From Bacteriovoracaceae bacterium (GTDB lineage Bacteria > Bdellovibrionota > Bacteriovoracia > Bacteriovoracales > Bacteriovoracaceae), in the NCBI GenBank assembly GCA_947448495.1, contig CANFNX010000010.1:1-35582 (forward strand): DNA of 35,582 nucleotides, written 5' to 3'. Below the pieces are notes generated by a model. That model worked only from the letters and a program-made list of their open reading frames with translations, did no database searches and was not told where the DNA came from. How positions within the stretch are numbered: position 1 is the first letter of the stretch; every line of letters starts with the position of its first letter. Position numbers and translations under genes: made by a program. This document shows positions 16,410-27,611 of this stretch, piece after piece.

Positions 16410-17087
16410 ATGAAAATAATGACAGTTATGCTTTGCTTACTTATGATCTCCTCCTGTGGGAGAGTGGAAGTCGCTGCAACAAATGGTGTTGGGGACTTTA
16501 AGAATTTAAGCTCTCTCACGATTGATCAGAATCAGATGAGTGCCATTTCTACCTTGTGCCAATCTCTAACGAGAAAAAATACTGCGCTACCTGCACTTGT
16601 CAACACACCATATGTGTTCTCATACAGCTCAAAAAAATGCAGTGATTCAGGAATTTCTGCAGCTGCCGATGTTGCAACAACACTTCAAAATTTGGGGAAT
16701 AGCTACAAATTTCTTCAGGCCAATGGTTCAACTTTTTATTTTGGTGAAGTGGAAACTCCAACAAGCGGATCCTTAAGTCGTATCTGTCAACAAATGGCGG
16801 ATACGGGTGGTCTTACAAATCCTATAGTCTCCGGAAGTGAAGTCCTCTTTATCACTGCTGGTATCGCTGGTGTTGACTGTCCACCTGTTGATAATGAATC
16901 TTGTCTTTTCTTAGAAAAAGGAACAAGTGATGGTAATGGACTTGCTAAAATTCATACCAAACAATGGATTCGCTTTAACACGAAGATAAGTTCAGGAAGA
17001 GATGGCTTTTTCACTTATCAAAAACAGATCACATCAAAAGGTTGTAATGAAGGTGCTTTTTCTGTCAACCAGGCCATCCTTAAATAA
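16410..17087 (+). CDS. Putative lipoprotein, unknown function
   Basis: A 225-residue protein with a signal sequence ending in the lipobox ISSC (Cys16). The mature chain is Ser/Thr/Asn-rich with several cysteines (LCQS, KKCSD, RICQQ, DCPP, ESCLF, KGCNE), suggesting a disulfide-stabilised periplasmic or surface domain. No family was recognised. It follows another lipoprotein gene by 5 bases and overlaps the 3' end of the convergent secreted-protein gene by 8 bases. Confidence 0.65.
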   Translation: MKIMTVMLCLLMISSCGRVEVAATNGVGDFKNLSSLTIDQNQMSAISTLCQSLTRKNTALPALVNTPYVFSYSSKKCSDSGISAAADVATTLQNLGNSYKFLQANGSTFYFGEVETPTSGSLSRICQQMADTGGLTNPIVSGSEVLFITAGIAGVDCPPVDNESCLFLEKGTSDGNGLAKIHTKQWIRFNTKISSGRDGFFTYQKQITSKGCNEGAFSVNQAILK

Positions 17088-17880
17088 AACATCCTTGAGA
17101 ATATCTCACTTTTAGGATCTTTTTCGTGTCTGCCTCCATGACAGTCTTGCAATAATAATACATAAAAACGTTTGTGGGTTTCGCTTTTTCTCCAGGACAC
17201 TCAATTTCTTGTCTATATTCTTCCCACTGACTTAATTGAGTCATATCAATAGAGGCTATCTTCCATTCGCCCTTAGGATTAATGGCAAGAGCATAGTACA
17301 AATCATTATCTTCTCTGAGAACATAGAGCTCCTTATTTTTAATAAATAGGACCTGATCTCCCAAAGGTAAAAGATAAGTCTCCGGGCCCGAATCATAAAA
17401 TACAGTCACTGGTTGAGGCATGAGATGATCGATCACTGGTAGCTCGATTTGAGATTGATCCCTCCATATCAAAGCTTTGGTTGTTGAGAGGGACTTAATA
17501 AAAAGTGTCGCTCTTAGAATCTTTTCACCTGACTTGGGATTATGCTCTTTGCAGTTTGAACTGTGAATGGCAGGTCGAAAACTTGCTTGAGCTTTATGAG
17601 TCGTATAGATCTCAACTGGAATACCGTACTTTGATCTATAAAGTTCGAGAGCTGGACCCACTTTTGTTGAATCGTTGAGGGCCTTTAATCTCTTAATCAT
17701 CTCTTTCCAGTTATTTAGCATATGACCCATGATTTGATCACACTCAGAATTTTCTGGGCACCCTTTAAACTCGTGATCAAAGTCTTCAATCGACTGAGGA
17801 TTTGGAAGAACTTCAATTCTCGGTTTGTTTTGAGCTTGGGCCTCAAAAGTGAGCAATAATAGCAATAAAGTTATCCGCAT
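17080..17880 (-). CDS. Secreted protein, unknown function
   Basis: A 266-residue protein starting with MRITLLLLLLTFEAQAQ, a short Sec signal peptide (cleavage after AQA). I took the ATG at 17880, with AGGA seven bases upstream, because the extra 41 residues available from 18003 are not signal-like and run over the promoter region of the lysine-rich protein gene. Mature features include paired cysteines (CPENSECDQ), a CKEHNPKSGE segment and a C-terminal CFI. No domain was recognised. It is divergent from the lysine-rich protein gene. Confidence 0.68.
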   Translation of the reverse strand: MRITLLLLLLTFEAQAQNKPRIEVLPNPQSIEDFDHEFKGCPENSECDQIMGHMLNNWKEMIKRLKALNDSTKVGPALELYRSKYGIPVEIYTTHKAQASFRPAIHSSNCKEHNPKSGEKILRATLFIKSLSTTKALIWRDQSQIELPVIDHLMPQPVTVFYDSGPETYLLPLGDQVLFIKNKELYVLREDNDLYYALAINPKGEWKIASIDMTQLSQWEEYRQEIECPGEKAKPTNVFMYYYCKTVMEADTKKILKVRYSQGCFI

Positions 17881-17953: not shown

Positions 17954-18076
17954 ATGAAAAAACTTAAAAAGTCACGCCCAGCTAAAAAGGCATCTAAGAA
18001 CAAAAAAAGCGGAGTTAAGCTTAAGCGCCTAGCTCGTAAGAAAAAACTTCTTAAAGGTCATAAGAAAGGTAAATAA
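17954..18076 (+). CDS. 40-residue lysine-rich protein
   Basis: A very small gene with strong expression signals. GAGGAGG lies at ideal distance before ATG 17954, and a perfect GC-rich terminator follows 10 bases after the stop. The product has 18 Lys, 3 Arg, one His and no acidic residue in 40 positions; examples are MKKLKKSRPAKKASKNKK and RLARKKKLLKGHKKGK. Such composition fits an RNA- or DNA-binding protein: a ribosome-associated small protein or a histone-H1-like compaction factor. I do not recognise an exact family, and it is clearly not bL34, bL36 or bTHX by sequence. An AT-rich TATTATAGA upstream (17914-17922) may be the -10 region. Being a real gene is well supported; the role is open. 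Confidence 0.75.
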   Translation: MKKLKKSRPAKKASKNKKSGVKLKRLARKKKLLKGHKKGK

Positions 18077-18315: not shown

Positions 18316-18585
18316 TTAGTCGTCTTTATCTAACTCATCTAAGGCCTTCTGCTGATCTTCCTTTAATTTCTGCCCCTGCTGAACCTTTTGCAAAATATCT
18401 TGGGCCTGCTCAGGAGTTAAGCTCGGAACGGACGAGGCTGAAGGGGCAGGTCCTGATGAAGCATGGGGGAGAGAAACAGAACGGGCCGGGGCCATCTTAG
18501 TTTGACTCACTACCGGTGCTTCATCGTCTTGGCCGTAGGCCAGAAAGCTAGCAATGAATAAGCATGCAAATAATAAAGCTCTCAT
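18316..18585 (-). CDS. Small secreted protein, unknown function
   Basis: An 89-residue protein with a signal peptide (cleavage after AYG, about residue 18), a Pro/Ala/Ser-rich disordered middle (PHASSGPAPSASSVPSL) and a charged helical tail (TPEQAQDILQKVQQGQKL onward to DKDD). GAGGA precedes the ATG at good spacing. It lies 14 bases after the thioesterase gene and is probably the last gene of that operon. No family was recognised. Confidence 0.65.
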   Translation of the reverse strand: MRALLFACLFIASFLAYGQDDEAPVVSQTKMAPARSVSLPHASSGPAPSASSVPSLTPEQAQDILQKVQQGQKLKEDQQKALDELDKDD

Positions 18586-18599
18586 GCGATGTCCTCTGA

Positions 18600-19088
18600 T
18601 TATGATTTTTGCCTTAAGGAATCTCTTACTGTTTTTTTCATTGAGACTCTTTTCTTAGCATTTTCAAAACGTCTTTTTTCATCCTCACTAACAGGTGAAA
18701 GTGAAGGCACTTCAACAGGTCGACCGAGATCATCTAGGGCGACAAATGTGAGATAAGCTTTTGTGGTTGTGCGAGATTCACCAGTATAGGGATTTTCTGA
18801 GGTCACTTTAACTCCCACAATCATCGAAGTGCGGCCTACGTAGTTGAGAGAAGCCTGTATCAAAACGTGGTAACCCATTTTGATTGGTGCAATGAAATCG
18901 ATATCGTCAATATGGGCCGTAACAACTGGACGTCCGCAGTGACGAGCGGCCACCATGGCAGCTGCAACATCGATCCAGCTCATGACAGTGCCTCCAAAGA
19001 CGGTATTTTGGGGATTTGTGTGATTGGGCATGACCATCTCACGCATTTCAACACTTGAGTCTGAGGGAGTTTTGGGATTTGATTTCAT
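18600..19088 (-). CDS. Acyl-CoA thioesterase (hotdog fold, YciA/BACH type)
   Basis: A cytosolic hotdog-fold enzyme that hydrolyses acyl-CoA. The 162 residues contain the family core NTVFGGTVMSWIDVAAAMVA (about 28-47) with N28 and the catalytic D40, followed by VVTAHIDDIDFIAPIKMG and GESRTTTKAYLTFVALDD, as in YciA and the cytosolic acyl-CoA hydrolases. AGGAAAAT before the ATG overlaps the end of the giant lipoprotein gene, whose stop is only 9 bases upstream. It is the only clear metabolic enzyme in an operon of exported proteins, and its substrate chain length cannot be inferred. Confidence 0.9.
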   Translation of the reverse strand: MKSNPKTPSDSSVEMREMVMPNHTNPQNTVFGGTVMSWIDVAAAMVAARHCGRPVVTAHIDDIDFIAPIKMGYHVLIQASLNYVGRTSMIVGVKVTSENPYTGESRTTTKAYLTFVALDDLGRPVEVPSLSPVSEDEKRRFENAKKRVSMKKTVRDSLRQKS

Positions 19089-19097
19089 ATTTTCCTA

Positions 19098-22000
19098 TCA
19101 GTCTTGGCAGTAAAGATGGTGATTCCATCGAAAACCTAACATGAAGGCAGAGTATCCAACAGCGACACTTGTCCCAGCGTTAGATAATTTCCCTTCGTCA
19201 TTTGAAGAATCTACAATGCCATAAATTTTATCACTTAAATTAGTATTATTACCAACAGGCTCGAGCGGGAATTCTCCAAAAGCTCCACCTTGACGAACTT
19301 TTTTAGAATCACAATAAGCTTGGCCTAGCTTAGAAATCTTAATGTTTACATCGGATGTAAGTCTAGGTTCTCCTGTCAAAAAATTATAATCAGCATCTAC
19401 TAGACCTCCACCTGGTTTATCTGTCCCAACAGCTTCATTAGACACAAAGCGATTGAAATATACCATGAGGTCAGTTCCCGCAGGAAGAGAACAGGTAAAG
19501 GTATTTGTATTTGGGGCCTGAACACCATGGCCAGAGCAGCATTTCGTTTCATCAGAAGTTGTTTTACCAAGTGGAGTACAACATTTGAAATCATTCTCGG
19601 AAAAGACCGGTTCGTGATCTAGACCATAACGATTCGTATAGTAAGAGTTTGTCGTTATGCTGGTGTCAGGATCGGTTAAAGACTGCTGAAATGAATACGT
19701 AGGATCGGTAAAATCAGACACTTTCATATCCGTTACACCAGATTTTTTGAAAAGACCTGGAACGATGCGATCAGAGTTGTCACTACAAGTAATTGGATTG
19801 TAGGAAATTTGTGGAATCCCAGTGAGTTCTAATTTTCCAAGCCTCTGAAGATAATAGGTGTTGGATCCAGGTTTTTTTCGGTTATTTGACCAAGAGCCAG
19901 CAGTGTAAGCGTTGATGAATTTTACACCCATTTTTTTAGATGTTTGACTAGGATTGAAATTCCCATCAATGGCCGGAACGACTTTCACTGTTCTTGTTGT
20001 GGAGTCAAAAGCATAGCAACAATGATCCCCGTCGGAAGTCGAGCACTGACCCGTGCCGTCTGTGGTTGGGGAGATGAGTGTCGTGAGGAGAGAGGATTTT
20101 TTTACACAAGGGTAGTATTCAGTAGTTTCATTGGAAATTTCATACATATGAACTCTCGCAGCAGGGGCCCATTTAGTGGCGTTTCCATCGGCAAGTGAGG
20201 AAATATTGTTATCCCAAGATCTTGAAATAAAGCTCGGTAATTTGACTGAAATATTTCTTCGGCCTGAAGTCTTACCGTTTTGAATAATAATTTCAGAATC
20301 AGCATCGGTACTTTTAGGATAAAAATAAAAATCCCTCATAACAGTAAAATCGATGCCATAAGTTTTATAATGGGATGTGTCTGATCCTGTAGGATAGATA
20401 ATCGGATCAGAGCTTTGGGCAATCTCAGCAAGATCGTCACTGATGGTGTACTGTGCACAAGTTCCATTCGTCAAAGTGGTTGAGTTTTTACAATAGCTAC
20501 TTCGATCTTGATTGGATAATGATGTTGCCTCACCGACAAAGTTATAATCAAAAGAGACATCTTCAGGTTTTGTAAGAAGAGTCGTAGTAGAGTTAATACA
20601 AGCAAAATTCTTTACATCGATATAGACGCGATCTCGCTTAGACCAATCGTTAGAGCCATCTGAGAATTTTCTGATCCAACCTCCACCACAGCAAGACTCA
20701 GAATTTGCCTCACTTAAAGTTTTCCATTGGTAAGGCGTCATTACATTTGAACCGTAGGCCGAAGTTAATGACGAGCCAGACTTGTCTTGAAACGCTGTCA
20801 GACCAGGGCGCGACGCTGTCCCAAGATTTTCAACTGTCGCAAGTCGCGAATAGCGTAAGGGATCATTAGGTGCCAGGCCTGGTGCAAGTGTTGTTTTAAG
20901 ACCAAAACTCACTTTATCATAAGTGTCGTCAGTTGTTGTTGAATTCGTGTTGGAAGAACTATTGGGATTTACATTGGTAGGTATAAAGCTTGTATAAGTC
21001 GTTAGATCGCTGCCAATCTCACGGCAACAGCGATTCTTGTTCATGTTAAAAGCTTTATACTTGAGAGAGTCAAGCGGTGAGGGCTTCGCATCTCCCTGTC
21101 CACAGACAAGATATTCTGAATAATATTTTTTCTCAGCTTCATTACCAAAATAATCAGTATTGTAGTTTGAAGCTTGATCCGCATGCAGTTTATTAGGACC
21201 ACAATCTAGATCTGTGTGACAAACCTGACCTGCTCTGCGAAGACAAGCATCTCTGGCAAAAGTAGGCTCAATCGCAGTTTGAAGGTTTAATGGCTTTGAT
21301 TCAATAGACTTAAACGGAGAGACGCTTAATAAATTATCAGCCGAATTATTTAAAGAGATATTTTTATAAAGTGAATCAAGACCGCAAGAGTTTTGATTTC
21401 TTGCTCGATCTTGATAACCGGTGAGCGAAAATGTCGATGTTAAAAATTCATAATTTCCCTCAGGTCCAACGACTGGACATGAAGAGTATCGATAATTGGA
21501 AAAAAGACCAGCGTTACAAGAGCCGATTTGGCTGATGAAATCTGATCTCAAAGAAGGATCAGGAGTTTTCAATTGTTCGTAGGGGTTGTACATCGTTAAC
21601 TGTGTTGTTGTTTCCGGAAGCGCTTTGCCAGGTAAGCATAGACCTGTATAACCGTTAGAGGTCGTTGTGTTTTGGGCCATGTTTTGAGTCAGTGCAAGTC
21701 GAATATCATTAGGTAAACTTGTAGTCAGAGATGAGGCGACATAGCTTAAGGGGCGTCCAAGAACATTGGCATCTTTCCCGAAGAAATGATTGTTGGCGAC
21801 AGGGAGATCTTCAAGATTCGAAGCGTAACGGGATACTTTTGAGTTGAATGCTGCACTTGAACTCACATTTGCACAGTAGAAGTTGGGAGCGCAGCTTAAC
21901 TTTTTTCTTAAATTTAAATCAGCGATGGCAGTGAGATTTTGAGCACAAAGGGAGCCAGAACCTCTATAAACACATCTTTTAGTGGAAGAAGAAGGAAATC

Positions 22001-24299
22001 GTTTTTGGGCAAGGATCTGATCAATCGTAACAGCCGTCGCAACTCCTGCCTTTTCTTTTGCCTCAGAATCAAATTCTGGCAGTAATGTTTTTGTCGTTTG
22101 GACATCCGCGCACATGTATTCCCAGCCAAGCCGAGTAATACAATCTGTATCTGTAGAACACATATGATTGGATTGACAGTTACCAGCTTCATTTTGGTAA
22201 GGATGGTAGTTGTGATACTGAGGATCATAATCCACTTGAGCTGCTTGAGTGATTCCATCATAGGCCTGAACGTTCACTACATGAAGTGTAGGATTGGCCA
22301 GATCTGCGAAAGGGGCATTAATCGCTAGGAAAAGTTTTGTAGATGTTGATCTCACAATTCTTCCTTTTCCGACAGCAAACCATGTCACTCCATCGAAAGA
22401 TCCGATAAGAGCACCTTTGTTGAAACCAAACCAATCCCTTTGGTACCCATTCGCGTAAAGCGCAGCCTGTGTCTTTAATCTCTCCAGACGCTGGGTTTGT
22501 ACATCTGAGTAGGCCTTGTGGGAAAAAGGAATCATGGTTGGAGGAATCCAGCAGGCCCTCCCAAAAATTGTATCTTCGTAATTCCCGCCAGTCGTATTAT
22601 AATCAAACCCATCCCGAGTCGTAGAATGACCCACGGCCTGGAGTCCACTCCCATAAGCAGATGTTGGATAAGCTGAGAACGAGGAGAACCAAGAGTCTTT
22701 ATTGCAAGTTGGACAAGGACTATAAAAACCCGAAATGGTAGAAATTTGATAAACTTGATCTAGTTCTATTTTCACCATTTTTGCCGGAAGGGCCTTATCA
22801 AGCGTAACATTCATTTGTCCTAAAATAGAATTCATTCCAAAAGTTTCTTGTGAAGGTAAAACTTTGCCTTCATCTAAGTAGGAAAATGCGTCACCTTCCT
22901 GAGTCGCATTCCCAGAGCATGTTGTACTGCTTGAATATTCATCGCCACATCCAGAAAAGAAGCGATGAGGAGCACTCCTCGAGTTCACAGAAACAGTTTG
23001 TTGCAGAGGAACTGCTTGAGATATGACTGGAGGAGTATAGCAATCAATCCGATTAGGTAAACCTGAGCTTTCAAAATAATTGACTGAATATTCGTAAGCG
23101 GGACAAAAAGCAACCATATCATTAAGTGTCGTTTTCGAGCAGCCGCAATTCTGATACAGCCTTTTCGCCACATTTAAATAATTCATATTAGAAGTCGGGT
23201 CAGCATTATTACGGCATTCAATATCTGTTGGATAAAGCGTTGAGGGATTATTTGCAATGTCTGGAATATCTAGGTCATCTGGAAAAAAATTTAGACCTGT
23301 TAGTAAGTCCTGATGAAAGGTTGCACCAGTTTTATATTTTTTCATGTGCTCAACACAGAAATAATCTTTTTTTAATTGCGTAAGTCCTTGCTCATAACTT
23401 CCAGAAGTTTGGCCAGTAGAAGTATTGGGCACCGATGCTCCACAAATGTAATAGAGTTGTGGATAATTAAGATAGGCCAAAGGGTTATTGAATCTTTCTT
23501 GCTCAGCTGCCTGAAGTTGTGAGGAATATAATGTCGTAGCGGTAGGCCTCACTGATCCATCTGTTATACATTGATTATCTAAACAACAGTCAAAGCCTCG
23601 TGCGATACATTGAGATTTTGAGCAGGTTCCTGAATTATTGGTTGAAATATTGTTAGGATTCACACTCAGTGCAAGTGTGCTTAAATTTATTTGAGCACCA
23701 GTTAATTGTTTAAGATCCAAGGGCGTTTTTTTAAATAAAAGAATTGTTCCTGAGGCAAGAACATTTGAGCAGTTACTACATAGTTGAGAAGGATCATAGG
23801 TCGAATGAGAGACCATAGTTGTATCTGCAACAAATCCTCCATTTGCATCTACGACCATCAGAGGGGCCGTACTACAAATGGATTGAGAATTGCTCAAGTC
23901 ATTAAAATCTGCCCTAAGAATTTTTACCGTCCTCTTGGCAGTGAAGTCATAAAATGAGATGGGTACCACTCGTGTGCGGAGTTCATATTTTAAACCATTA
24001 AGTGAATAACGACTTACTAAGCAATAATCCTCAGAGAAATTTCCCGATGTATTTAAAAAAAGTTCAACGTCTTTACCTGTGATATAGGCATTATTCAGAT
24101 TTGAAGCATTCACTGTAATTGTTGTTGAGAGATCGCCTAGGAAGTTCCATTGGGTCGGAGACTCTGGAATTGTTGATGTTGTTGAATTACTATTTGGATT
24201 GGTGCTGGTAGAGTCACCAGATAAATTTCCCTGACTCACCTGAGATTGCGGCAAGCAAGCGACTAATAAGAATAAGAGTATTAAGTACCTAACATCCAT
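19098..24299 (-). CDS. Giant cysteine-rich lipoprotein (1733 residues), unknown function
   Basis: I do not recognise a family over the full length. The signal peptide ends in the lipobox LVAC (Cys15), then a long Asn/Ser/Thr-rich linker (about 16-50), so a very large lipid-anchored protein on the periplasmic or outer surface is expected. Cysteine-dense modules recur along the chain: CSKSQCIARGFDCC (226-239), a CSTDTDC module near 710, a CHTDLDC module near 1030, and CC-containing segments (NRCCREIG, ESCCGGGW, DHCCYAFD, KCCTPLG, KCCSGHG) in the last 650 residues. The C-x-T-D-x-D-C pattern recalls short extracellular disulfide-rich repeats. Asn/Ser/Thr content is high and there is no membrane span. 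GAGGGAA precedes the ATG. It sits in an operon downstream of another large secreted protein. Confidence 0.8.
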   Translation of the reverse strand: MDVRYLILLFLLVACLPQSQVSQGNLSGDSTSTNPNSNSTTSTIPESPTQWNFLGDLSTTITVNASNLNNAYITGKDVELFLNTSGNFSEDYCLVSRYSLNGLKYELRTRVVPISFYDFTAKRTVKILRADFNDLSNSQSICSTAPLMVVDANGGFVADTTMVSHSTYDPSQLCSNCSNVLASGTILLFKKTPLDLKQLTGAQINLSTLALSVNPNNISTNNSGTCSKSQCIARGFDCCLDNQCITDGSVRPTATTLYSSQLQAAEQERFNNPLAYLNYPQLYYICGASVPNTSTGQTSGSYEQGLTQLKKDYFCVEHMKKYKTGATFHQDLLTGLNFFPDDLDIPDIANNPSTLYPTDIECRNNADPTSNMNYLNVAKRLYQNCGCSKTTLNDMVAFCPAYEYSVNYFESSGLPNRIDCYTPPVISQAVPLQQTVSVNSRSAPHRFFSGCGDEYSSSTTCSGNATQEGDAFSYLDEGKVLPSQETFGMNSILGQMNVTLDKALPAKMVKIELDQVYQISTISGFYSPCPTCNKDSWFSSFSAYPTSAYGSGLQAVGHSTTRDGFDYNTTGGNYEDTIFGRACWIPPTMIPFSHKAYSDVQTQRLERLKTQAALYANGYQRDWFGFNKGALIGSFDGVTWFAVGKGRIVRSTSTKLFLAINAPFADLANPTLHVVNVQAYDGITQAAQVDYDPQYHNYHPYQNEAGNCQSNHMCSTDTDCITRLGWEYMCADVQTTKTLLPEFDSEAKEKAGVATAVTIDQILAQKRFPSSSTKRCVYRGSGSLCAQNLTAIADLNLRKKLSCAPNFYCANVSSSAAFNSKVSRYASNLEDLPVANNHFFGKDANVLGRPLSYVASSLTTSLPNDIRLALTQNMAQNTTTSNGYTGLCLPGKALPETTTQLTMYNPYEQLKTPDPSLRSDFISQIGSCNAGLFSNYRYSSCPVVGPEGNYEFLTSTFSLTGYQDRARNQNSCGLDSLYKNISLNNSADNLLSVSPFKSIESKPLNLQTAIEPTFARDACLRRAGQVCHTDLDCGPNKLHADQASNYNTDYFGNEAEKKYYSEYLVCGQGDAKPSPLDSLKYKAFNMNKNRCCREIGSDLTTYTSFIPTNVNPNSSSNTNSTTTDDTYDKVSFGLKTTLAPGLAPNDPLRYSRLATVENLGTASRPGLTAFQDKSGSSLTSAYGSNVMTPYQWKTLSEANSESCCGGGWIRKFSDGSNDWSKRDRVYIDVKNFACINSTTTLLTKPEDVSFDYNFVGEATSLSNQDRSSYCKNSTTLTNGTCAQYTISDDLAEIAQSSDPIIYPTGSDTSHYKTYGIDFTVMRDFYFYPKSTDADSEIIIQNGKTSGRRNISVKLPSFISRSWDNNISSLADGNATKWAPAARVHMYEISNETTEYYPCVKKSSLLTTLISPTTDGTGQCSTSDGDHCCYAFDSTTRTVKVVPAIDGNFNPSQTSKKMGVKFINAYTAGSWSNNRKKPGSNTYYLQRLGKLELTGIPQISYNPITCSDNSDRIVPGLFKKSGVTDMKVSDFTDPTYSFQQSLTDPDTSITTNSYYTNRYGLDHEPVFSENDFKCCTPLGKTTSDETKCCSGHGVQAPNTNTFTCSLPAGTDLMVYFNRFVSNEAVGTDKPGGGLVDADYNFLTGEPRLTSDVNIKISKLGQAYCDSKKVRQGGAFGEFPLEPVGNNTNLSDKIYGIVDSSNDEGKLSNAGTSVAVGYSAFMLGFRWNHHLYCQD

Positions 24300-24486
24300 G
24301 TGTACAATTTCCCTCTCTCATTTTCGGAATTTCGTCAGTTTATCTTAATTGTAGGACAGGTTGGGGTAAACTTTGCCAGTGTCCTGGTGGTTGATTGTAA
24401 GTGTTTAATATTACGACTGAGCGAGGAAAAGGGTTGACCCATCGGACGCCAAGGCTGCCAATTTAAATAATCAAGTTTATGGTTGT
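24300..24486 (-). other. Intergenic gap with coding-like remnant of the upstream gene's 3' end
   Basis: This 187-base gap shows coding-like traces on the minus strand. In the frame of the upstream gene, beyond its stop, the translation contains YNQPPGHWQSLPQP (near 24400-24360), echoing that gene's own end, YFNYPPGH. In another frame it reads LDYLNWQPWRPMGQPF. The bases AGTGTCCTGG occur at both places on the plus strand. It may be a decayed longer C-terminus or a partial duplication. Confidence 0.35.
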
Positions 24487-26448
24487 TTAGTGTCCTGGGG
24501 GGTAGTTGAAGTAACTTGAAGTCCCAAAACTGTAAGGGGAGTATGTTCCTCCTACGCTGGCCGATGAGTATGGCGGAAGGCCTGGTGTCATGCGATAGTT
24601 TCCCCATCCAGTCATCAATGCAGGGGTCATGATTTGAGTCGAAATGTCCATGGCCGGAGCTGTTGGTGGAAGATAGGGATAGTTTGGCGTATAAGGGTTT
24701 TGATAAACCGGTGCCGGAGCAAAAAAATTAGCTGTGGTTTGAAGGAGAGATTGGGCAAATTGTCCAAATATCTCTCCGCCACTGTTCCTGGTGTCGGGAT
24801 CAACAGGCGCCTGAAAATAATCCGGATTCTCTTTTTTTGTTTTTTTCTGGGGCTCTTTTTCTGTCAATTGGCACAGTAAATCTTTTCCTTGTATCAAAAT
24901 GGATTTATCGTCACAGATCGTTTTGATATCAGTATCTTCTTTCGGTTTTTCTAAAACATACAGAATATCATTGGCCTGTCCACTTAGCACATAGGCTTCT
25001 TTAGAAATTGTTCCTATGTCTTGATCGCAGCCTGTAATGTTTGAGTCTGAAGTTGTCGTGCATTCTCCTGAATGAAGTTTCTCGAGAGCAAAGTTTCTCA
25101 AAGCAAATAGATTTGGATTGTCTTGATAATGTTTCGCCTTTAGGGCATTGAGGTAATTTGCTTTCTCAATAAGCTCCGTTAACTTTGTGGTTATTATTCC
25201 ATCGCATTCAGTTGGATATTTAAGATTCTCATCAGGGATGCATTTGCTGAGGGCTTGATCCAATTGTGTTCGGTATTTTTGTCCATGGGCAAATTCATCA
25301 CTCAAATCTTTGATAATCGCCTTATCTAATTGTGGAAGTTCTTTTTTATTTATCAACAATTTAAGACAGTCCTCAATGGGGGCATCCAAGGTTTGAGCAT
25401 TTTTACAAGCATCACTCCCAGTTTCTGGATATTCAGCGTACTGGTTCAAAACGAGAGATAATTTACTTTTCATCTCCCATTCTTCTCGACTTTTTAGATC
25501 AGTGAGATATCCCGAAAAACGTTGTGGTATTTTTTGAGCGAGAACCAGTTTTTCTGAGGCGGTAATATTTTGTAACGAAGATTGCATGTTTTTAATAAAG
25601 CCAAATTTGGAGTTCCCCTGGAGCTCTGGTAAAGACTTAAGAGTCTTTAAATCTTCATCTGAAAAAAGGCCATCTTTTTCGGGTGATTTAATTTCACTTA
25701 GAAGTTTTGAATAACTATAAGGATCTTTACCTTTTTTGATGGCCATTGCGTCGGTCAAATCTTCTATGTGCTTTCGATTAAATTTTCTTTCAGTGTTTTT
25801 ACCGACTTTAATCATGCCATTGATTTCGTTATAGACAATATCAGTCATAACAAAAGCTGGAGAGCATACAGAATTGCTACCTACTAGTTCTGACTTAAAT
25901 TCGAGACAGTACTTCTGCCTTAAAGCATCAAAACTCTGTGAATCTTTCCATCCCGATTTGTCAGCGGCCATTTTGGATAAGATATTTTCAGATTTGGAAT
26001 TGTTTGTTCCTAAAAATAACTCAATTGTGCTTGCAATTTGCAGATTATCCATAAAGGTTGCAGTTGCCTCTGTTGCAATCTTAGGATCATTGAATTCTTT
26101 AAGTGTGATCAGCCCTTTTTCAATTTCATTTTTTAGATTTGAAATTCCTTTAAGGAGGGCAATTTCGTTTTCTACAGATTTTAATTGCATCTCAAGGGCT
26201 GAATAATCTTTGCACCGATAATCCCAGTCAGCATTTGCACCCTCGGCTTTGGCGAAATTTGGAAAACCAATCGATTTGTTATCAAGTCCTAATGACTTTG
26301 CTTCAATCTTGTCGCAATCAGATCCGAAGCGACTCTTTTGGATGCGTTTTTCTAAATCTTCGGCGGTTTTTTTCAAGGCGGTACAGTCAGGCGTTACTGC
26401 CATTGCACTAAGGTAGGGAATTGCTAAAAATAGTGGCCAGAATTTCAT
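24487..26448 (-). CDS. Large secreted protein with Pro/Tyr-rich C-terminus, unknown function
   Basis: A 653-residue protein beginning with a signal peptide (MKFWPLFLAIPYLSAMA, then VTPDC). The N-terminal two thirds is mainly helical with a probable coiled coil near 65-105 and paired cysteines (SDC, YRC, KYC, VCS) typical of an exported protein. From about 555 onward it is low-complexity and rich in Pro, Tyr, Ser, Gly and Asn (NPYTPNYPYLPPTAPA, SSYFNYPPGH), as in surface or matrix-binding tails. I took ATG 26448 for the signal peptide, though an in-frame ATG lies at 26490; neither has a good ribosome site. It is first in the operon containing the giant lipoprotein, so the two may act together outside the cytosol. 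Confidence 0.72.
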   Translation of the reverse strand: MKFWPLFLAIPYLSAMAVTPDCTALKKTAEDLEKRIQKSRFGSDCDKIEAKSLGLDNKSIGFPNFAKAEGANADWDYRCKDYSALEMQLKSVENEIALLKGISNLKNEIEKGLITLKEFNDPKIATEATATFMDNLQIASTIELFLGTNNSKSENILSKMAADKSGWKDSQSFDALRQKYCLEFKSELVGSNSVCSPAFVMTDIVYNEINGMIKVGKNTERKFNRKHIEDLTDAMAIKKGKDPYSYSKLLSEIKSPEKDGLFSDEDLKTLKSLPELQGNSKFGFIKNMQSSLQNITASEKLVLAQKIPQRFSGYLTDLKSREEWEMKSKLSLVLNQYAEYPETGSDACKNAQTLDAPIEDCLKLLINKKELPQLDKAIIKDLSDEFAHGQKYRTQLDQALSKCIPDENLKYPTECDGIITTKLTELIEKANYLNALKAKHYQDNPNLFALRNFALEKLHSGECTTTSDSNITGCDQDIGTISKEAYVLSGQANDILYVLEKPKEDTDIKTICDDKSILIQGKDLLCQLTEKEPQKKTKKENPDYFQAPVDPDTRNSGGEIFGQFAQSLLQTTANFFAPAPVYQNPYTPNYPYLPPTAPAMDISTQIMTPALMTGWGNYRMTPGLPPYSSASVGGTYSPYSFGTSSYFNYPPGH

Positions 26449-26516
26449 ACATTGATATTTTCGGCTATTTTGGGCAAGACATTTAGTCATTTATTGAAAG
26501 AGTCGGTAAAAAGAGG

Positions 26517-27611
26517 TTATCCGTGCCCCGAACTCATGAAAACTTCATCATAATTAATGAATTTTTGAGATTCGCCAAGGGATAGAAAGTAGTCCTCGGT
26601 AAATTTCATGGTATCCCCTAAATGTTGGCAACCGAAGATTTGTGATCTAAAGGCAGCAGCGTGGGGAAAGCCAGCAGCAAACCACACGATTAACTTTCTA
26701 AGCTGAACCAAGGTTGTTCTTTCTTCGGGGAAAATTTCAGTATTATAAGTGTAGAGTCGCTGTACCACTTCCCAATAATCTTTGCCATGAAAGATGGATC
26801 TTTTTTGTTTGGCGTAATTTGGGTCAAGTGATTCCAGAAAAATAAATGGATTTCTAAGCGCACCACGGGCAATCATGAGGGCATTACAATTTGTTTTTAA
26901 TAATCTGTCTGAAACTCCATAGGGGTGATGAAGATCTCCGTTACCAACGAGAGGGAGTTTTTTTACTTCATTTAAATTTTCAATGAAATTCCAATCAGCG
27001 AGTCCAGTATATTGCTGGGTTCTTGTTCGACCATGAATCGCCACCCATTCGATGCCAGAGTCATGAGCGATTTTTAAAATCTCGGCTGCATTTAAATGGT
27101 TCGCATCCCAGCCTGTTCTGATTTTTATGGAGAGTGGGATTTTTATTTTGCTGCGTACTTTTTCAAACAGGGGAGCCAGTTTTTCAACTTCTTTCATTAG
27201 GGCAGAGCCCCCACCTTTAGTAACGACCTTATTAACTGGACATCCCATGTTTATATCAAGAAATTTTGGTCCATAATTTTGTGCGACTTCTGCTGCCCGC
27301 GACATGGCCTCCGCATCCTCACCAAAAAGCTGAAGACCAACATTTTTTTCTAAATTGTCAATTTTTAGCATTTCGAGGGTGCGTTGATTGGCATAGTTTA
27401 TACCATGACAGGAAATAAGCTCTGAGACTGTTCCGCCAGCACCAAGGTCTTCCATCAGGAGTCTGAAGGGGATATTGCAAATTCCGGCCATCGGGGCCAA
27501 TAAAAGTTTTGATGAAAAATCAACTGTCCCAAGTTTCATGGGCGCTGCTTGGGCCTGAAATTGTTCAATTTTATTGTTCAGTTCGGGGCTAAAGGGTGCT
27601 GGTTTCTTCAT
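26517..27611 (-). CDS. tRNA-dihydrouridine synthase (DusB-like)
   Basis: A flavin enzyme that reduces uridine to dihydrouridine in tRNA. The TIM-barrel core starts at about residue 34 with LLLAPMAGICNIPFR, has the catalytic cysteine C124 in NMGCPVNKV with the following KGGGSALM, and shows IKIRTGW, IHGRTRTQQYTG and VGNGDL, all Dus landmarks. The wording of the active-site loop fits DusB best among DusA/B/C. At 364 residues it is somewhat longer than usual because of a 24-residue N-terminal tail; ATG 27539 would match the common start, but neither start has a clear Shine-Dalgarno. It is a single gene on the minus strand. Confidence 0.9.
   Translation of the reverse strand: MKKPAPFSPELNNKIEQFQAQAAPMKLGTVDFSSKLLLAPMAGICNIPFRLLMEDLGAGGTVSELISCHGINYANQRTLEMLKIDNLEKNVGLQLFGEDAEAMSRAAEVAQNYGPKFLDINMGCPVNKVVTKGGGSALMKEVEKLAPLFEKVRSKIKIPLSIKIRTGWDANHLNAAEILKIAHDSGIEWVAIHGRTRTQQYTGLADWNFIENLNEVKKLPLVGNGDLHHPYGVSDRLLKTNCNALMIARGALRNPFIFLESLDPNYAKQKRSIFHGKDYWEVVQRLYTYNTEIFPEERTTLVQLRKLIVWFAAGFPHAAAFRSQIFGCQHLGDTMKFTEDYFLSLGESQKFINYDEVFMSSGHG

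Follow-up and report, generated by a model that had tools for sequence, protein, structure and literature searches.

What do two very large exported proteins, encoded side by side in a member of the Bacteriovoracaceae, build together? The question arises from a metagenome contig (C10) that belongs to a genome of 2.85 Mb in 202 contigs, and by the window we mean the whole 35,582-nucleotide stretch of this contig that was analyzed. From the letters alone, the original prediction had described an operon encoding a Cys-rich lipoprotein, a secreted protein, an acyl-CoA thioesterase and a small secreted protein, and had proposed it as an undescribed surface system. An exported, disulfide-rich and conserved system in which two very large proteins are kept together does emerge from our analysis, and it is undescribed as far as the libraries searched extend. 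With regard to its purpose we are more guarded. Our preferred reading, in which belief and doubt are evenly balanced, is that the lipoprotein (LIPO-A) is an outer-membrane-anchored, disulfide-stapled structural scaffold that is accompanied by an exported helical partner and is specific to the Bacteriovoracaceae.

Gene Organization

The genes of the locus run along the minus strand from dus through the partner, LIPO-A and a YciA-like thioesterase to a small exported ORF:

26517..27611, minus strand: dus, tRNA-dihydrouridine synthase (Pfam Dus, E 7.4e-68)
24487..26448, minus strand: predicted exported helical partner, 653 aa (alignment of 34 sequences, AlphaFold2 (AF2) model, tail composition)
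24300..24486, minus strand: 187-bp spacer from partner to LIPO-A (63 loci: median 188 bp, range 42-394)
19098..24299, minus strand: LIPO-A, 1733-aa lipoprotein of outer-membrane type, 57 Cys
22200..22892, minus strand: LIPO-A segment of highest conservation, residues 470-700 (63% mean column identity in 45 sequences)
18600..19088, minus strand: YciA-like 4HBT acyl-CoA thioesterase, 162 aa, cytosolic (Pfam 4HBT, E 1.1e-20)
18316..18585, minus strand: exported ORF, 89 aa (28-41% identity, near relatives only)

The four minus-strand ORFs from the partner onward lie where they had been placed, and the gaps of 9 bp between LIPO-A and the thioesterase and of 14 bp between the thioesterase and the 89-aa ORF are likewise as originally given. 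The claim of an operon stands only in part: the downstream gaps are short, but between the two large genes lies a spacer whose length class is conserved among the 63 loci and which, at 187 bp, is no sign that the partner and LIPO-A are co-transcribed. A scan for promoters and terminators returned counts no higher than in shuffled sequence. The gene cluster probably starts with dus, outside the coordinates first proposed and 26-68 bp upstream of the partner, for which an alternative in-frame ATG at 26490 would give a length of 667 aa. Of the 61 loci whose upstream DNA is long enough, 45 have both dus and a partner-like ORF upstream of LIPO and on its strand. That the large proteins are real, and not chance ORFs, follows from the full-length, stop-free homologues that exist across the Bacteriovoracaceae.

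Other features of the window lie beyond the locus. At 17954-18076 on the plus strand is a very basic 40-aa ORF (MKKLKKSRPAKKASKNKKSGVKLKRLARKKKLLKGHKKGK) missing from the ORF list, with a strong ribosome-binding site and with a hairpin and T-run just 3' of it; it recurs at full length and 92-100% identity in close relatives and matches no Pfam or NCBIfam family. This ORF overlaps the listed TTG start of a 307-aa exported ORF on the minus strand, which probably starts in reality at an ATG near 17880. A 225-aa lipoprotein at 16410-17087 on the plus strand, convergent with the 307-aa ORF, has no family match and was found in one near relative alone, at 45% identity.

The LIPO Lipoprotein Family

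LIPO-A proved to be the Cys-rich lipoprotein that had been predicted, with a lipobox (LVAC) whose Cys, the predicted acylation site, is C15 and keeps its place in 90% of 80 homologues. Among the 71 homologues with a located lipobox, the +2 residue is Leu, Val, Met, Thr or Ile, rarely Gly or Gln and in no case Asp (0/71), and the linker after the lipobox Cys averages 73% S/T/G/N/P/Q/D/E; in LIPO-A this linker is rich in Ser, Thr and Asn. Sorting to the outer membrane in the absence of Asp at +2 is a rule established for E. coli and may not hold for the Bacteriovoracaceae. Across 80 full-length homologues, paralogues included, 50 of the 57 Cys are each retained at a rate of approximately 90% or higher, and some 50 conserved Cys argue for an oxidising compartment, since they are expected only there.

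Members of the family measure about 1600-2060 aa. LIPO-A consists of a family-wide core (approximately residues 370-1250) and a C-terminal Cys-rich domain (approximately 1465-1733); within the core, segment 470-700 contains FGRACW..P and DW[FY]GF[ND].G...GSFDG..WF and matches nothing in Pfam or the PDB. The repeated C-x-T-D-x-D-C and CC modules from which a long surface structure had been envisaged did not hold up: the former motif is present just twice, at residues 714-720 and 1027-1033, CC occurs six times, and self-BLAST of LIPO-A reveals no internal repeat, though the Cys of both motifs are individually conserved. Most invariant residues of the family are Cys, Gly, Trp, Phe or Arg, and no catalytic set can be recognised among them. 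With 62-67% identity to near relatives, against 44-60% for the other exported neighbours, LIPO evolves slowly for an exported protein and is unusually conserved in its neighbourhood.

The earlier statement that none of the exported proteins is recognisable is correct for the two large ones. Neither LIPO-A nor the partner has a significant match in Pfam, NCBIfam or PHROGs, or among PDB sequences when searched singly or as profiles, and the HMM searches that had been suggested as a check linked the pair to 0 adhesin or enzyme families. An AF2 model of LIPO-A residues 40-1239, built with 50 homologues, reached a mean pLDDT of 80 and a pTM of 0.67, with 477 residues at pLDDT 90 or above, and gave no Foldseek match at E<=1e-3 in the PDB or in viral predicted structures. 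For an adhesin domain or fold in particular, the tally was 0 Pfam or NCBIfam families for LIPO-A and 0 Foldseek PDB matches for residues 40-1239. Near residues 633-661, the pattern GSFDGVTWFA.G.GR....KLFLAIN is, as we take it, reminiscent of the LecA/PA-IL jelly-roll; a galactose-binding lectin of this type was rejected, as neither Pfam, PDB profiles nor Foldseek supported it. The openly accessible papers searched yielded no mention of a LIPO protein.

The Exported Partner

Both the signal peptide and the Pro/Tyr-rich tail first attributed to the 653-aa protein are borne out. The signal peptide is followed by a helical body with conserved Cys (approximately residues 22-460), a linker, a helix at 556-576 and a disordered tail (577-653) rich in aromatic residues, Pro, Gly and Ser. 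P, Y, F, G, S, T, N and A account for 71% of the last 70 residues vs. 41% of the body, charged residues make up 7% of the tail vs. 29% of the body, and 63 of 67 partners have Phe, Tyr or Trp within their final five residues. In the AF2 model (pLDDT 70) the body is helical and the tail disordered, and the model has no fold match in the PDB; on the strength of this model we rejected a beta-barrel outer-membrane protein, for which the aromatic C-terminus might have spoken.

Upstream of LIPO, approximately 56 of the 61 loci with sufficient flanking DNA have a partner-like ORF for an exported protein of 440-1100 aa, and the arrangement is kept across genera. Iterated HMM searches joined 60 partner sequences into one family; further positional partners fall outside the partner profile, yet share its architecture. 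Six Cys are invariant in the 34 aligned partners, whose identity beyond the closest relatives is 13-26%, reaching down to 13-17%. Rapid change driven by prey was considered and rejected as an explanation for this divergence: identity to near relatives (44-48%) is ordinary for exported neighbours (44-60%), and is therefore not evidence of it.

Distribution and the LIPO-B Locus

In a phylum-wide scan, LIPO was present in 97 of the 104 Bacteriovoracaceae genomes and in 0 of 186 from elsewhere in the Bdellovibrionota, and so was absent from every other family of the phylum sampled. A scan of the order placed it in 93 of 100 genomes; the seven that lack it (G028, G109-G112, G116 and G121) include several that are nearly complete, and their dus loci hold a match to neither LIPO nor the partner. 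Where relatives in the best 80 loci bear names, the records are nearly all of Bacteriovoracaceae or Halobacteriovorax type. In G109, one of the LIPO-lacking genomes, the gene next to dus encodes 978 aa or more, with 30 Cys and a poly-Thr tract (L146 3968-6904, minus strand).

Two LIPO paralogues are usual in the genomes checked: LIPO-A, which lies at the dus locus, and LIPO-B, approximately 30% identical to it, between cinA and uppP. The neighbours of LIPO-B in four genomes (G016, G024, G027 and G035) comprise uppP, an FHA-domain or RDD-like protein, a small protein, an exported helical-looking protein of 1020-1115 aa and a lipoprotein of 790-854 aa. These last two, the exported protein with 20-23 Cys and the lipoprotein gluzincin-like, form a conserved pair at the LIPO-B locus family-wide (L033 2-5581, L124-L127). 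HExxH and NEGxAD-type motifs are conserved in four sequences of the lipoprotein from different genera, with HExxH and a downstream Glu invariant, and there is a weak match to M4_C (E 0.0012; 19.2 bits, below the Pfam cut-off of 24.4). The exported family of the pair persists in a diverged form in six of the seven LIPO-lacking genomes and is thus not tied to LIPO; as a possible relative of the partner, the 1022-aa exported family of the LIPO-B locus was rejected as unrelated by sequence (hhalign probability 0.7%).

LIPO and the M4-like lipoprotein occur together in 91 genomes, LIPO only in two, the M4-like protein only in none and neither in seven, for a Fisher p of 2e-9 with genomes treated as independent. 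In a FastTree phylogeny of DUS and Ffh, the LIPO-lacking genomes take several positions, suggesting several losses. A single clade of LIPO-lacking genomes was not rejected by the AU test on a 44-taxon set (p 0.585), so the Fisher value overstates the independence of the losses, and we do not count the correlated absence as independent evidence. The joint absence may be one evolutionary event. The M4-like gene lies within the LIPO-B cluster, LIPO-A at a distant locus.

The Downstream Thioesterase

The 162-aa protein scores 74.1 bits over residues 28-102 against Pfam 4HBT (PF03061; cut-off 20.6). It also aligns with YciA (NCBIfam NF007970, E 3.9e-15), but at 55.9 bits fails that equivalog's cut-off of 162. 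It is an ordinary hot-dog thioesterase, and a relative of the YciA family only. Of 62 loci, 28 have the gene right beside LIPO, in most cases at a distance of 8-12 bp; another nine have it 2.4-2.7 kb away on the downstream side, past three intervening genes. Genes for a znuACB-like metal transporter lie directly 3' of LIPO in two loci that were read gene by gene (L038 11611-14010; L149 11111-13478), and in L149 they stand between LIPO and the thioesterase. The position next to LIPO is a conserved one, and a linked function is putative.

Proposed Role and Alternatives

LIPO-A is very probably exported, anchored in the outer membrane and stapled by disulfides, with a dedicated exported partner; lipobox, Cys conservation and gene neighbourhood all point this way. 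On the scaffold reading, LIPO-A would be exported by Sec and then acylated on Cys15, sorted to the outer membrane by virtue of its +2 residue, and held there on its flexible Ser/Thr/Asn linker. Approximately 25 disulfides, on a presumed pairing of the Cys, would staple the protein, which would be non-enzymatic. The helical partner would be a dedicated companion that may bind LIPO-A, probably by docking or co-polymerising through its uncharged, aromatic and disordered tail, and LIPO-B and the M4-peptidase-like lipoprotein would be parts of the same lineage-specific envelope system. The only pointer to the cell surface is lipoprotein sorting logic, which would put LIPO-A there.

Whether such a system may touch prey is the question behind the strongest alternative, a surface apparatus for prey attachment or invasion in which LIPO-A forms a stalk on the cell surface and the aromatic tail of the partner is its adhesive part. 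We consider this possible, and distinctly less probable than a scaffold. The family counts periplasmic predators among its described members (Bacteriovorax, Halobacteriovorax; PMC11656739), and the locus occurs in records under the titles Bacteriovorax sp. DB6_IX and Halobacteriovorax marinus; a large Cys-rich lipoprotein of outer-membrane type beside a partner with a low-complexity, aromatic tail would also suit the role. Against it stand the want of any match to an adhesin family or fold, the absence of LIPO from all other Bdellovibrionota families sampled, and the reduced 1.6-Mb genome G108, which keeps LIPO and is missing flagellin. A predation role specific to the Bacteriovoracaceae is possible. 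A connection with type IV pili or flagella was rejected: PilT is present in 16 of 16 genomes tested irrespective of LIPO, and flagellin, missing in one LIPO-lacking genus, occurs in three further genomes without LIPO. The most ambitious form of the idea, a new prey-contact apparatus of two giant lipoprotein paralogues, adhesive-tailed partners and a dedicated metallopeptidase that replaces whatever the Bdellovibrionaceae use, we regard as unlikely.

LIPO might instead have nothing to do with prey and serve the Bacteriovoracaceae in housekeeping, as a periplasm-facing envelope or cell-wall scaffold or as an export-assembly factor. Its near-universality in the family, its slow evolution for an exported protein, and the two widespread paralogues beside core genes (dus; cinA and uppP) are consistent with this. 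Seven genomes dispense with LIPO, several of them nearly complete, and no known periplasmic factor is similar to it; we judge the account somewhat less probable than attachment. An unrecognised secreted enzyme, for instance a lipoprotein acting on carbohydrates or lipids, to which the thioesterase would add a linked metabolic function, would fit the short gap between the two genes in many loci and is very improbable given invariant residues that form no recognisable catalytic set, no match to an enzyme family or fold, and the nine loci in which other genes separate the two.

Comparison with Known Systems

LIPO is an exported family of very large, strongly conserved proteins, confined to the Bacteriovoracaceae in our sampling, with a sequence and a predicted fold that resemble none recognised. 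If the family does form an envelope apparatus, it would offer an entry point to how the surface is built in a predator lineage whose gene content is very unlike that of Bdellovibrio, and its confined distribution, together with the few genomes that lack it, supplies ready comparisons. Among known systems, the YciA-type 4HBT acyl-CoA thioesterases share their 4HBT domain with the 162-aa protein, which differs in scoring below the YciA cut-off. M4/gluzincin peptidases have in common with the M4-like lipoprotein the HExxH and NEGxAD-type motifs and the weak M4_C match; the LIPO-B-locus protein is longer, is a lipoprotein and scores below the Pfam cut-off, and its peptidase activity is putative. 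LIPO itself resembles the Lol-sorted outer-membrane lipoproteins processed by SPase II in its conserved lipobox, non-Asp +2 residue and flexible linker, whereas it shares no domain with any library family and differs from outer-membrane lipoproteins generally in its unusual size and in its approximately 50 conserved Cys.
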